DNA of 64,000 nucleotides from positions 88,501 through 152,500 of the forward strand of contig NZ_OY762276.1 in NCBI RefSeq assembly GCF_963665445.1. The letters run 5' to 3'. Positions 17,710 through 23,614 of the stretch are shown here, one piece after another. The translations under genes were made by a program, and so were the position numbers. The notes below the pieces were generated by a model. It was not told the DNA's origin and made no database searches. It worked only from the letters and a program-made list of their open reading frames with translations. The DNA is from an uncultured Desulfobulbus sp. (GTDB taxonomy: Bacteria > Desulfobacterota > Desulfobulbia > Desulfobulbales > Desulfobulbaceae). The first letter of the stretch is position 1, and each line of letters starts with the position of its first letter.

Positions 17710-19266
17710 ATGGATAATAAACAGCGTCAGTTGATGAAAAAGTATATTGATTTGATCGTGTATCGATGGCGATTAATCAGTATCAGTGCTTTGGTCGGTA
17801 TTTCAATAGGCTTGGTCTATTATCTTACACTGCCCAAAAGTTACCAGAGTACTGCCTTGTTGAGTTACGAGGCACAGCAGATCAACCCCGCAAAAATGGA
17901 CCCGGAGCAGGGGAAAATTCGTCTTCGGGACTCCCTTGCTACGCTCAGTGAACTGGTTACCAGCCGTAATAGTCTTGAAAAGGTTATACTTCAATATTCT
18001 TTGTATGAGGGGGCGAGAAAAACCCTCCCTATCGAAGATGTTATCGAAATGATGCGGAGAAATATCGAGATTTCCCCATCGAAAACAGGTGACGTTTTCA
18101 GTGTCGCTTTTGAGGGGGGGAACCCGCAGCAGGTCGTTCGCGTGACCAATCAACTTGCGTCGCTGTTTATCGAGGAGAATCTCAAGTATCGTGAGGAGCG
18201 GGCCACGGAAACTTCCAAGTACACGGAAAGTGAGTTGGCGATGGCCAAACGGGTTCTTGATGGTAAAGAGACACAGATGCGGGATTACAAGTTACAGTAT
18301 TTTAATGAGATGCCGGATCAGCGTCAGAGCAACTTCACTCAATTGCAGGCACTGCTCAGCCAACAGCAGGGGATACAGAATTCTATCCAGGAGCTTGAAC
18401 GGACCAAGGTGATGGCTCAAGAGCAGTCGAGTATGCAGGTGCGCATTGCAAGTTTTGCCGCGCAAAACAACTCAGGCCCACTGCCAGAGACCGATTATGA
18501 CCGCCTGCAAAGGTTGAAATCGCATCTTGCTGAAATTTCGACCAAATATACAGAGAGTCATCCGGATGTCAAACGAACCAAGCAGCTGATCACTCAACTG
18601 CAGGCCAAAATAGCAGCGGGCGGTGGTCATGGGGGCGGCGCGTCGACAGGATCCAAAGCCGCATTGGTGGCAAGTCTTGAGAGCCAGCGGTTGCAGATGC
18701 AAATCAAGCAGATAGATGTCAATATAGATCAGCTGCGCAAACAGCTGGCCGCGCTGCCGGAACAGATCGCAAAGTACCAGCGGTGGATTGAGGCCGCACC
18801 TATTCGTGAGGCCGAGTGGAAGACCCTCACTCGGGACTACAGTGAGTTGCGACGACACTACGACGAATTGGTTGCGCAAAATCTGGCGGCCCAATCAGCC
18901 GAAAATATAGAAAAAAATCAAAAGGGAAGTCGATTTAAGATTGTCGACTCTGCCCGCCTGCCGGAAAAACCGTTCAAGCCCAATTTTCTCAAGGTGGTTG
19001 GGGGCGCCTTGGCCGTGGGCTTGGGCTTAAGTCTCGTTTTTGTTCTTGGCGCAGATTTCATTGACACTTCCTTCAAGGATATCAATGACCTGGAGGATTT
19101 TGTCGGGGTTCCCGTCATCTGTGCTATCCCCTATGTTGAGCAAGAGCATGAAATCAAGAGGCAAAAAGTGTATCTTCGCCTCAGCGTGCTTGGCATACTC
19201 TTGTTCGCTGTTGGGGTGATCGCTGCGGTTGTTGCCATGTGGAGCAAAGGTTTAATCATAGTCTAA
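17710..19266 (+). CDS. Polysaccharide chain-length determinant (Wzz/GumC-type)
   Basis: This 518-residue membrane protein has a first transmembrane helix at about 17-38, a long periplasmic coiled-coil region, a second helix at about 429-448 after a proline-containing KPFKPN, and an extra third helix at about 493-511. The N-terminal Wzz domain and coiled coils match polysaccharide co-polymerases that set the chain length of exported polymers. The partner kinase is encoded separately two genes downstream. The third helix near the C terminus is atypical. The 31-base gap to the divergent phosphatase implies that its promoter lies in or next to that gene. Confidence 0.85.
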   Translation: MDNKQRQLMKKYIDLIVYRWRLISISALVGISIGLVYYLTLPKSYQSTALLSYEAQQINPAKMDPEQGKIRLRDSLATLSELVTSRNSLEKVILQYSLYEGARKTLPIEDVIEMMRRNIEISPSKTGDVFSVAFEGGNPQQVVRVTNQLASLFIEENLKYREERATETSKYTESELAMAKRVLDGKETQMRDYKLQYFNEMPDQRQSNFTQLQALLSQQQGIQNSIQELERTKVMAQEQSSMQVRIASFAAQNNSGPLPETDYDRLQRLKSHLAEISTKYTESHPDVKRTKQLITQLQAKIAAGGGHGGGASTGSKAALVASLESQRLQMQIKQIDVNIDQLRKQLAALPEQIAKYQRWIEAAPIREAEWKTLTRDYSELRRHYDELVAQNLAAQSAENIEKNQKGSRFKIVDSARLPEKPFKPNFLKVVGGALAVGLGLSLVFVLGADFIDTSFKDINDLEDFVGVPVICAIPYVEQEHEIKRQKVYLRLSVLGILLFAVGVIAAVVAMWSKGLIIV

Positions 19267-19290
19267 CTTTCTGATATTTCGAGAACTGGT

Positions 19291-20217
19291 ATGTATACCA
19301 AATATTACGGACTTGCCAAAAAGCCCTTTGCCCTGACCCCGGATCCCAATGCTGTTTTCATGAGCGAGACCCACCAGGAAGGTTTGGCTATTCTCAGATA
19401 CGGCATTCTCAGTAAAAAGTGCTTTCTTGTCTTGACGGCGGACGTCGGCTCCGGAAAAACAACCCTGTTGCAGGCGTTAGTGGCAAGTCTTGAGCAGGAC
19501 GTTCATTTGAGTGTGCTCAACAATCCGATCCTCTATCGGGACGAATTTTTTTCCTTTCTTGCCAAGCAACTCGGGCTTGCCTGGGATGGCAACAAGGCGA
19601 TGTTTCTTGTTGAATTCGGAAAGATGCTGAAGGCTTGCTATGAAAAGGGTGAGCAGGTCGTCCTTATCTTTGATGAGGCGCATGTGTTGCCTGTTGATCT
19701 TTTGGAAGAGATTCGTCTTCTGTCCAACCTCGAGGAAAAAGGGCAAGATGTCCTTTCGATATTTCTGGTTGGCCAACCCGAGCTCAACGAGCGTATGAGT
19801 GATGATCGCCTTCTTCCGCTGCGGCAGCGTATAGGCCTGCGTTTCCATTTGAACCGGTTCACCTTGGAGGAAACCAGGCAGTATATCATCTTTCGTCTGA
19901 GGCAGGCAGGTGCCCATCACTTCAACATTTTTTCTGAAGAGGCCATCGCCTTTATTCATAAGGTCAGTCAGGGGACACCGAGGTTGATCAACATTATCTG
20001 CGATCATGCCCTGCTCACCGGCTTTGCCGAGAACAAGCCGACCATCGGGCCGGAACTCATCAAGGAAAGCGTTGACGACCTCCATTTTCCTGGTGAGGAG
20101 ACCCCCCTGCCGGTAGCGGTTCAGACTCGTTCCAGACGTTGGCCGTGGATACTACTGGTACTGCTCCTTGTAGCCGGGGGCATTGGCGGCGCGCTCTGGT
20201 GGCAGTTGCATCAATAA
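19291..20217 (+). CDS. ExeA-like AAA ATPase with C-terminal membrane anchor
   Basis: This 308-residue protein starts MYTKYYGLAKKPFALTPDP, the usual opening of the ExeA/GspA-like ATPase family. It has Walker A DVGSGKTT near residue 50 and Walker B VVLIFDEAH near 127. A single transmembrane helix (WPWILLVLLLVAGGIGGALW) lies at the extreme C terminus. In exosortase-linked polysaccharide loci a protein like this sits next to Wzz and a CpsD kinase. It starts 24 bases after the chain-length gene and is probably co-transcribed. Confidence 0.85.
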   Translation: MYTKYYGLAKKPFALTPDPNAVFMSETHQEGLAILRYGILSKKCFLVLTADVGSGKTTLLQALVASLEQDVHLSVLNNPILYRDEFFSFLAKQLGLAWDGNKAMFLVEFGKMLKACYEKGEQVVLIFDEAHVLPVDLLEEIRLLSNLEEKGQDVLSIFLVGQPELNERMSDDRLLPLRQRIGLRFHLNRFTLEETRQYIIFRLRQAGAHHFNIFSEEAIAFIHKVSQGTPRLINIICDHALLTGFAENKPTIGPELIKESVDDLHFPGEETPLPVAVQTRSRRWPWILLVLLLVAGGIGGALWWQLHQ

Positions 20218-20280
20218 ATTTTTATGCCGGGTCTTCCCGGTATATCGTTGTCAGTTGATTTGATCCATGTGGAGGAATGT

Positions 20281-21159
20281 GTGGGAAAGGTGTTTGATGC
20301 CCTGAAACGGGCTGATGAAGCAGAAGACTCGGCCGAAAAAGTCTATAAACCGGTTGCTGAAACGTCCTCCGCTCAAATAGACCATCCGGAACCGGCGCAA
20401 AGAGTACAACCAGAGACCAGGACATCTCGACCAAGTGAACCGCGTCGAGAACTCGGAAAATGGGACAATCGGCTGGTATTGTCGACCATGACAACCGGGC
20501 CGATCCCCGAGAGCATCCGGTCGTTGCGCACCCGTATACTTTTTCCAGGTGAGGGCCCTGTGCCGCGCAGTATCCTGATCACGAGTACGGCTCCGGGGGA
20601 GGGCAAAAGTTTTATTTCAGCCAATCTTGCCATCAGCCTGGCGCAGGGGGTGGACAATTACTGTCTGCTCGTTGATTGCGACTTGCGCAGGCCATCTCAG
20701 CACGAGTTGTTTGGACTGAGCAATAAAGCCGGGCTTTCCGATTATCTCCAGCATAAAAAACGTATCCAGGAACTCCTGGCTCCATCGGGGGTAGACAAGC
20801 TCTCGATTCTTCCCGCCGGTCCGCCGCCCATCAATCCAGCAGAGCTGGCCAGTTCAGGGGCCATGATCGGGTTGGTCGATGAAATAAGTCAGCGATACGA
20901 TGATCGCATCGTGCTTCTTGATAGTCCGCCATTGCATTCAGCAAGTGAGACAGCTGTCCTTGCCCAGCATGTTGATGGGGTTGTTCTGGTCGTTCGCCAT
21001 GGTTCTTCTCGGCGTGAATACGTCAAGGCATTGGTCGACACCATCGGTCGTGAAAAAATTCTAGGGGTGGTGTTCAATGCCTACAAGGCAACCTTGCTGG
21101 ATTATAAGGTTTTTGGCTACTACGAATATCAGCAGGATTATTACGCGAATCGGCGCTGA
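20281..21159 (+). CDS. BY-kinase (CpsD/CapB-type cytoplasmic tyrosine kinase)
   Basis: A GTG at 20281 with GGAGG five bases upstream is the best start; it gives 292 residues beginning GKVFDALKRADEAED, the usual opening of the family. An upstream ATG at 20224 lacks such a site. Walker A TSTAPGEGKS is at about 101-110 and Walker A' is LLVDCDLRRP. The C terminus is a tyrosine cluster (GYYEYQQDYYANRR), the autophosphorylation tail. Together with the Wzz-like protein it should control polysaccharide polymerisation by cyclic phosphorylation. Confidence 0.9.
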   Translation: MGKVFDALKRADEAEDSAEKVYKPVAETSSAQIDHPEPAQRVQPETRTSRPSEPRRELGKWDNRLVLSTMTTGPIPESIRSLRTRILFPGEGPVPRSILITSTAPGEGKSFISANLAISLAQGVDNYCLLVDCDLRRPSQHELFGLSNKAGLSDYLQHKKRIQELLAPSGVDKLSILPAGPPPINPAELASSGAMIGLVDEISQRYDDRIVLLDSPPLHSASETAVLAQHVDGVVLVVRHGSSRREYVKALVDTIGREKILGVVFNAYKATLLDYKVFGYYEYQQDYYANRR

Positions 21160-21989: not shown

Positions 21990-22026
21990 GCCTGTTCTCG
22001 TTTTTTTGAGAGCAGGCTTTTTTTTT
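21990..22026 (+). terminator. Terminator of the carbonic anhydrase gene
   Basis: A 10-bp stem with one G-T pair (21990-21999 with 22008-22017) is followed by nine T. Confidence 0.88.
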
Positions 22027-22165
22027 GCCGCAGAGACATCGGATGGCGCATTTGGTGTTTTTCATGGGTTAGGCATTGCGTCTCTCTTTAAAATTATGCT
22101 AACTATCCGAATAGAAATCATGCTATTTTTTCATGCGGTTATACCGCTTTTCCTTGAGGGTAATC

Positions 22166-23614
22166 ATGGGCCTTCCCATTGATGAAGTTATTGATCGCCT
22201 GGAAAAGGAGGTCCGCTCCTATGAAGTACCGGTCGTTGACCTGATCGCAGCCCAGACAAAGGACCCGTTCAAGGTCCTGGTGGCGACCATTCTCTCGGCG
22301 CGAACCAAAGATGAGGTCACTGCCGCTGCGTCAAGACGACTTTTTTCCGTCGCGGATACAGCCTCCGCACTTGCGTCGCTTTCCGTGGAGGACCTGGAGC
22401 AACTTATCTACCCGGTCGGCTTTTTTCGCAATAAAGCCAGATATCTTCATCAACTTCCAGCGGTTCTTTTTGAGCGTTTTTCCGGACAGGTTCCCGACGA
22501 AATAGAAGCGTTGTTGCAGCTGCCTGGGGTCGGCAGGAAAACCGCCAACCTGGTGGTGGCTGTTGCTTTCAACAAGCCTGCCATATGCGTCGATACCCAT
22601 GTGCATCGGATCATGAACATATGGGGGTATGTCCGCACCGAAACACCTCTGCAGACTGAAATGGCGCTCCGGGAAAAATTGCCGCAACAGTACTGGATTC
22701 GCATCAATGGTCTCCTGGTCGCGTTTGGCCAGGGAACCTGCAGACCGCAACACCCTCATTGTGAGCAGTGTGTGCTGCGGGATCTTTGTCCCAAAATCGG
22801 AGTTTTGCCGAAAAAGGTTCGCGCCGCATCGGTCAAAAATAGTGAACCGCAAGGATTGAAACTCGTCTCCTGGAATGTCAATGGATTGCGGGCCGCACTG
22901 AAAAACGGGTTTGTTGAACATGTGCAACGTTTGAATCCCGAGGTGTTGGCCCTGCAGGAAATCAAAGCCCTGCCCGAGCAGGTTCCGGAGGAGATACGGC
23001 ATATGCCCGGATATCAGAGCTTTTGGTTCCCGGCGCAAAAGAAAGGGTATTCCGGAACAGCAGTCTTCAGCAAAATTGAACCGCTACAGGTGTATTACGG
23101 GCTGGAACAGGCAAGTTTTGATGTGGAGGGACGGGTTCTCACCCTGGAGTATCCGGATTTCTTTTTACTCAATATTTACTCGCCCAATGCCCAGCCGGAA
23201 CTGAAACGTCTCGATTTCAAACAGGAATTTAACAGGGTCTTGCTTGCCCATATGAATCGTTTACGGCAAGAGAAATCAGTGCTCGTCTGCGGTGATTTGA
23301 ATGTAGCCCATAAGGAGATCGATTTAGCCAATCCCAAGGCCAATGTGAAAAACCCCGGATTTTCCCAAGAGGAACGGGCCTGGATGGATGAGGTTGCGGC
23401 CGCTGGCTATGTTGACACCTTTCGCCAATTCAATCAGGAGCCCGGGCAATATACCTGGTGGAGCTACCGGTTCAGTGCACGGGCAAAGAATATAGGTTGG
23501 AGAATAGATTACTTCCTCGTCGATGAGAACAGTGCCGCACGGGTCGTGGATGCCGCCATTCACAGTGACATTACCGGATCGGACCACTGTCCGGTATCCA
23601 TCGTATTTCGTTGA
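22166..23614 (+). CDS. Fused endonuclease III - exonuclease III (bifunctional base-excision repair enzyme)
   Basis: One uninterrupted frame of 482 residues encodes two complete repair enzymes. Residues 1-210 are endonuclease III: helix-hairpin-helix LPGVGRKTA with catalytic K125, VDTHVHRI with D143, and a [4Fe-4S] loop C192-x6-C199-x2-C202-x5-C208. Residues 231-482 are exonuclease III: SWNVNGLR, metal ligand E265 in LQEIKA, D377 and N379 in GDLNVAH, D448 in RIDYFL, and the D473-H474 pair in GSDHCPV. The linker is only about 20 residues. The ATG at 22166 has GAGGG five bases upstream; an earlier ATG at 22133 does not. The N-terminal half would excise oxidised pyrimidines and nick the AP site, and the C-terminal half would trim the blocked 3' end. 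Confidence 0.93.
   Translation: MGLPIDEVIDRLEKEVRSYEVPVVDLIAAQTKDPFKVLVATILSARTKDEVTAAASRRLFSVADTASALASLSVEDLEQLIYPVGFFRNKARYLHQLPAVLFERFSGQVPDEIEALLQLPGVGRKTANLVVAVAFNKPAICVDTHVHRIMNIWGYVRTETPLQTEMALREKLPQQYWIRINGLLVAFGQGTCRPQHPHCEQCVLRDLCPKIGVLPKKVRAASVKNSEPQGLKLVSWNVNGLRAALKNGFVEHVQRLNPEVLALQEIKALPEQVPEEIRHMPGYQSFWFPAQKKGYSGTAVFSKIEPLQVYYGLEQASFDVEGRVLTLEYPDFFLLNIYSPNAQPELKRLDFKQEFNRVLLAHMNRLRQEKSVLVCGDLNVAHKEIDLANPKANVKNPGFSQEERAWMDEVAAAGYVDTFRQFNQEPGQYTWWSYRFSARAKNIGWRIDYFLVDENSAARVVDAAIHSDITGSDHCPVSIVFR

Follow-up and report, generated by a model that had tools for sequence, protein, structure and literature searches.

A fused nth-xth gene predicted to encode a two-domain base excision repair enzyme is conserved in the order of Desulfobulbus

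A single open reading frame in the 64,000-nucleotide stretch of Desulfobulbus DNA analysed here (the window) appears to place two DNA repair enzymes in one chain, which raises the question of whether the join is genuine and what it would mean for the repair of oxidised bases. The fused nth-xth gene occupies positions 22166 to 23614 of the forward strand and encodes 482 amino acids followed by a TGA stop codon. A ribosome-binding-like GAGGG, read from the sequence, lies 5 nt before the ATG (22156 to 22160, forward strand). Another in-frame ATG at 22133, 33 bases upstream, is a possible alternative start; we favour 22166 because of the spacing of the GAGGG and because the alignment of most relatives begins at residues 1 to 5 of the 482-residue protein. 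A terminator-like hairpin with a T tract (21990 to 22026, forward strand), consisting of an 11-pair stem (21990 to 22017) and a T run, separates the fusion from an upstream carbonic-anhydrase-like gene. Given this hairpin and the GAGGG before the 22166 start, the fusion gene is probably transcribed apart from that neighbour. The promoter scan at the locus returned no more sites than shuffled sequences did. Six neighbouring genes partly recur, each in between 15 and 38 members of a set of 114 related loci that includes many short ones, and we saw no sign of a mobile or defence role for the fusion. Just upstream, at 17710 to 21159 of the window, frames that we named by eye as chain-length-determinant-like, AAA-ATPase-like and tyrosine-kinase-like are arranged as in a polysaccharide export cluster.

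The original prediction, made from the sequence alone, described one uninterrupted frame with two complete domains, and both Pfam and the open 482-residue frame agree with it. Pfam places an HhH-GPD domain at residues 39–173 (2.4e-24; 86.2 bits, cut-off 26.2), an HHH motif at 104–132 and an Exo_endo_phos domain at 234–474 (1e-27). The endonuclease III-type (HhH-GPD) domain, supported by Pfam, the NCBIfam nth model TIGR01083 and a match of PDB 9nzc to residues 7–213, comprises residues 1–213 (22166 to 22804, forward strand). It is followed by a linker of about 17 residues (214–230; 22805 to 22855, forward strand) and by an ExoIII/APE1-type AP endonuclease domain (residues 231–482; 22856 to 23611, forward strand), assigned by the NCBIfam xth model TIGR00633 and by Foldseek. 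The fusion scores 308.8 bits with TIGR00633, above the cut-off of 99.05. With the equivalog model TIGR01083 it scores 190.2 bits, below the cut-off of 211.7, which is exceeded by any match in just one of 36 relatives. The N-terminal half is classed here as an Nth-type HhH-GPD domain and not as a TIGR01083 member.

The catalytic residues of both halves are present, all as the original prediction had listed them. In the Nth domain, the motifs LSART, GVGRKTA and VDTHVHR contain Arg46 (22301 to 22303), Lys125 (22538 to 22540) and Asp143 (22592 to 22594), respectively, of which Lys125 is by homology the Schiff-base lysine of the glycosylase/AP lyase and Asp143 the catalytic aspartate. A loop of the form C192-x6-C199-x2-C202-x5-C208 (22739 to 22789) is predicted to hold a [4Fe-4S] cluster; all these features lie on the forward strand. 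The ExoIII domain carries N237, E265, Y338, D377, N379, W432, D448, D473 and H474, which we take to match the corresponding residues in E. coli numbering. We aligned 101 distinct fusion proteins from 113 full-length loci; only full-length loci were chosen, some of them among the best 80 of 224, and the set is thus uninformative on the frequency of absence. All 17 positions checked are invariant across the 101 proteins, namely Arg46, the lysine, the aspartate, each of the four cysteines and ten ExoIII residues, among them the metal-binding and catalytic N, E, Y, D, N, D, D and H. Mean column conservation is 0.76 in the Nth domain, 0.45 in the linker and 0.71 in the ExoIII domain, and the distance from the last cysteine to the ExoIII asparagine varies from 22 to 55 residues, mostly 27–29. 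The original prediction had further pointed to Arg46, which presumably corresponds to Gln41 of E. coli Nth, as a departure from the usual LSAQ motif. The arginine is indeed there in 101 of 101 fusions, but it is not peculiar to them: 19 of the 22 stand-alone Nth proteins fetched from the phylum carry Arg at this position, one carries Gln and two lack a motif match, and the solved Nth 9nzc likewise has Arg (LSSRTRDE). Arginine is thus ordinary in this Nth subgroup, which rules out Arg46 as a special feature of the fusion.

An AlphaFold2 model built on 62 aligned fusions consists of two mostly confident domains whose mutual position is undefined (mean pLDDT 84.3, pTM 0.55). Residues 217–228 of the linker, predicted to be disordered, fall below a pLDDT of 50, as do the short within-domain stretches 24–29, 432–434 and 442–444. 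The 50 listed of 574 Foldseek matches are all members of the ExoIII family, headed by Mth212 (50% identity) and B. subtilis ExoA. The modelled ExoIII domain adopts an EEP fold, with Foldseek TM scores of 0.93–0.95 of target to Mth212 (0.93), ExoA and XthA. By sequence, the nearest solved relative of the Nth domain is 9nzc, followed by human NTHL1 (7rdt). Two domains without a fixed arrangement in the model would fit a flexible tether.

The fused frame is widespread among relatives. We surveyed the order of Desulfobulbus in 145 genomes, each at least 90% complete, with a presence threshold of 1e-40. Both domains lie in one open frame in 120 of these genomes, 117 as single full-length, stop-free matches and three (G217, G351 and G374) with long linkers that were translated directly. 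In five genomes the two domains lie side by side but are separated by a break within the linker (G327, G333, G343, G355 and G375), and eight encode an Nth without a fused ExoIII (G028, G034, G328, G345, G399, G407, G416 and G435). No match at 1e-40 was obtained in six genomes of the order (G031, G330, G365, G382, G425 and G426), and one genome with a weak match (G331) was placed in no class. The remaining five are cut or in pieces: the apparent split in G004 is really a run of N in a scaffold, the frames of G032 and G379 stop at contig ends, that of G324 stops 5 bases short of contig base 1, and G421 has two partial fusion pieces on two contigs. One genome (G429) holds two full-length fusions, on C4 and C41, 68% and 64% identical to that of the window, reflecting duplication or a mixed bin. 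In G345, G399 and G407 the solitary Nth is accompanied by a separate, more distant xth elsewhere in the genome (47–50% identity), and the fused ExoIII may have been replaced there.

Among 36 relatives, our own genome included, 25 carry the full-length fusion as one match, the other 24 at 57–78% identity. Contig ends or a gap in the scaffold interrupt the gene in G003, G004, G006 and G016, and a contig end cuts it in G032; G028 and G034 have only the Nth, G031 has separate and different genes, and three genomes of 56–74% completeness (G008, G014 and G020) gave weak HhH matches only. A scan of 84,980 genomes with peptide patterns, a method limited to close relatives, gave 224 confirmed loci, and the best 80 of these include the cultured Desulfobulbus rhabdoformis (76%), D. 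alkaliphilus and three Desulfogranum species. The full-length matches in 25 of 36 relatives and 120 of 145 genomes of the order argue that the fusion is not the product of chance or sequencing error. A frameshift or chimera artefact is ruled out, as the frame is kept in many assemblies, including the single-contig genomes G000 (our own, 5.08 Mb), G001, G009, G018 and G026. The original prediction had singled out residues 210 to 230 as the place where a stop codon would count against it; the window has none there, and one occurs in a few relatives.

The few interruptions bear on how much the join matters. All five split genomes retain both domains in recognisable form. In G355 and G327 a frame change lies beside runs of A, and these two splits may be sequencing errors. 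Inverted-repeat DNA in the linker accompanies a frame change in G375 (38-nt arms), and similar DNA is inserted in frame in G351 (L094; 33-nt arms, 79% complementary) and in G374 (17-nt arms). By translation, G343 (L090) carries a similar insert plus a stop, and an inverted repeat was looked for in this linker and not found; direct translation of G333 revealed a longer insert with stops. Repeat-like DNA was noted in the linkers of L094/L180, L181, L167 and L090. Since other members of the same genera or families are fused, an assignment made by eye from the codes for genus and family, we read the splits as secondary and recent-looking. Together with the losses, they suggest that the tether is not essential, and separate domain pieces may suffice. 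Likewise, the five splits, the eight Nth genes without a fused ExoIII and the six genomes without a match (n = 145) indicate that the fusion is not required.

These exceptions lend some weight to a reading in which the fusion is neutral or an expression convenience, the domains working independently and gaining co-expression but no kinetic hand-off. A variable linker that is predicted to be disordered, the extra DNA inserted there in several genomes, and the five splits and eight solitary Nth genes among 145 genomes would all be expected of such a protein. Against this, 120 of 145 genomes keep a single frame even as identity to the protein of the window drops to 57%, and the five splits look recent, with fused kin in the same genera or families. 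We consider this reading rather doubtful, though a serious minority candidate. The same observations bear on the proposal, made in the original prediction, that the fusion channels the nicked intermediate. The predicted disorder of the linker, its variation in length, its interruption in five of 145 genomes and the low pTM of 0.55 point to loose tethering and away from a rigid channel.

A disordered linker could also be a site of proteolysis, or an internal start could lie within it, so that two proteins would be made from the gene. In the window, the linker contains no ATG or GTG, and its two TTG codons lack a spaced Shine-Dalgarno-like site. For the relatives we examined 98 fusions, that is, the 101 aligned proteins minus three not fitting the linker pattern. 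By a position control, a linker ATG is in excess (49 of 98 against 28.6 expected), as is an ATG with a GGAG-like site (19 of 98 against 5.7). The excess shrinks when amino acids are held fixed: upon synonymous resampling, a GGAG-like site precedes 20 of 65 linker ATGs where 14.0 (sd 2.5) are expected, compared with 90 of 528 other internal ATGs, where 85.7 are expected. This residual leaves room for a separate ExoIII from an internal start in some relatives; as an account of the gene in the window, production of two proteins is highly improbable.

We then asked what else the genome encodes for these steps. The original prediction had suggested checking for separate nth and xth genes, and family models find none of either. 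With the xth model, the genome gives a single match, within the fusion; in the 36 relatives, every match over the cut-off falls within the fusion or a piece of it, with that of G031 as the exception. The nth model matches three proteins: the fusion itself, MutY (308 bits) and a 226-residue frame. The latter HhH frame, outside the window (L144:1407-2084; about 169906-170583 of C1 in the same genome), has as its best model a 3-methyladenine glycosylase, at 119.6 bits below the cut-off of 192, and reads GVGRETA, in which Glu replaces the lyase Lys. By these models, the fusion is the only Xth and the only Nth-type lyase found in the genome. It is not the sole AP endonuclease, as endonuclease IV (Nfo) is also encoded; UDG-family, Fpg and MutY genes are likewise separate.

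Nth-type enzymes remove oxidised pyrimidines, and the 3' unsaturated aldehyde that remains is taken off by AP endonucleases. The domain identities support the original view that the two enzymes act in sequence in base excision repair. The lyase step of Nth-type enzymes is slow and can be bypassed by AP endonuclease (PMC13022620, PMC12190888), and the passing of the site from glycosylase to AP endonuclease is debated between a hand-over and a standing complex (PMC12190888). On balance we consider it probable that the fusion is a conserved two-domain repair enzyme of its order, which works by a cis hand-off across a flexible tether and was born from a tandem nth-xth pair. The Nth domain would excise oxidised pyrimidines, and Lys125 could then nick the abasic site by beta-elimination, giving a blocked 3' end that the ExoIII domain, held on its flexible tether of about 17 residues, would trim to a 3'-OH. 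Alternatively, the ExoIII domain could cut the abasic site hydrolytically ahead of the slow lyase step. Because neither active site has lost its residues, the two routes are inseparable by sequence; the invariance of Lys125 argues that lysine-based chemistry is still in use. The hand-off would stem from higher local concentration and one-to-one stoichiometry and not from a rigid tunnel, and the ExoIII domain would serve as the cell's only Xth also for sites produced by other glycosylases. A stronger version, in which an ancestor within one order joined its sole Nth and its sole Xth, so that one molecule would act in cis to give an extendable 3'-OH and never release the abasic site or the blocked nick, is plausible to us but falls short of probable. 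The original description of a self-contained enzyme goes beyond what the sequence shows. Completion of base excision repair needs a polymerase and a ligase, and endonuclease IV could do the end cleaning instead.

The relationship to Mth212 raises a further alternative, in which the ExoIII domain acts first, incising directly 5' to damaged or uracil bases by nucleotide incision or as a uridine endonuclease, as Mth212 does, and the Nth domain serves a separate route. Mth212, at 50% identity, provides the nearest solved structures, of which 3w2x is titled a DNA uridine endonuclease, and the Trp changed in the mutant 3w2y aligns with Trp431, which is invariant in 62 sequences. However, the whole subgroup may share that Trp, and the genome has its own UDG-family gene. 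The ExoIII domain may incise at uracil, as its similarity to Mth212 and the conserved Trp431 would allow; as the main function of the protein we regard ExoIII-first incision as quite unlikely.

Tandem gene pairs offer a route to the fusion. In a survey of 296 genomes of the phylum, with figures among the matches listed, 12 of 13 genomes of the order are fused, the thirteenth being the gapped G004, and among the other 283 genomes G098 and G211 are fused. Full-length, stop-free matches occur in five of 46 genomes of the family of G098 and four of 76 of the order of G211, eight of these nine having also been translated directly; through this recurrence the two fusions are no accidents of single bins, and they may reflect lateral transfer or mis-binning. 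At least eight of the 76 genomes in the order of G211 (G477, G484, G487, G497, G499, G528, G532 and G537) carry separate nth and xth genes in tandem, and direct translation of G537 shows stops between the domains, i.e. separate genes. These pairs share with the fusion their gene order, related domains and similar spacing, and differ in having a stop after nth and an own xth start in place of one frame. In all eight pairs the nth stop falls nine residues after the last Fe-S cysteine; in the seven junctions measured, 39–123 nt separate it from the ExoIII core, and in three of these AAGGAG precedes the likely xth start. In 32 of the 98 fusions, one of the 8 residues preceding the ExoIII core is Met, against about 10% of random 8-mers, a figure uncorrected for kinship. 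Given the same gene order in these tandem pairs, loss of the nth stop codon is the simplest route that the sequences suggest. Quick domain trees (34 of the 98 fusions with 22 Nth or 16 Xth rows), which carry long-branch warnings and weak support, cluster the fusions: either tree needs three changes, where the means after shuffling are 17.5 and 13.7. Stand-alone rows nevertheless fall among the fusions (three f85 Nth and that of G034; the Xth of G067, G271 and G307) and could stem from later loss of one half, transfer or multiple fusions. With these rows and the weak support, a single origin is not proved. The activities, the hand-off and the route of origin are all inferred from sequence comparison.

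The original prediction knew of no characterised bacterial fusion of this order of domains, and our literature searches returned none. They covered the titles and abstract openings listed, mostly from outside subscription journals, and no published description of an Nth-ExoIII fusion was found there; the words 'fused' and 'fusion' are absent from the available part of PMC9266487. Plasmid (72,556) and phage (50,697) records contain no place covering 80% of the fusion protein. One plasmid match reaching upstream of xth (H1, Ilyobacter) reads through into udk and is no fusion. As other phyla were covered only by these records and by the peptide-pattern scan for close relatives, the fusion may exist elsewhere. 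The enzymes themselves are textbook; the architecture and its prevalence in one order appear, within these searches, to be new. Together with its natural separate-gene and split relatives, the fusion makes the value of physical coupling directly measurable, and if the cis reading holds, the splits and losses within the order would be ready-made controls for the worth of tethering. The fusion may also mislead annotation, as one of the two enzymes can look absent from these genomes when nth and xth are sought as separate genes.

Further known systems place the fusion in context. With endonuclease III (Nth/NTHL1) it has the whole domain in common, including the HhH motif, the lysine, the aspartate and the Fe-S loop; it differs in adding a second enzyme at the C-terminus, in belonging to the LSART subgroup and in scoring under the NCBIfam nth cut-off. 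With the Mth212-ExoA branch of ExoIII/APE1 (3g2c, 3w2x and 5cfe) it shares the whole EEP domain and the catalytic residues at 48–50% identity, whereas here the ExoIII is fused behind a glycosylase and no separate xth was found in the genome. Repair domains are joined in one chain in Ada-type fusions, and likewise in MutY with its NUDIX-like tail (here L145). To our knowledge, the tail of MutY does not carry out the next repair step; in the fusion, by contrast, both partners are whole enzymes of successive steps.
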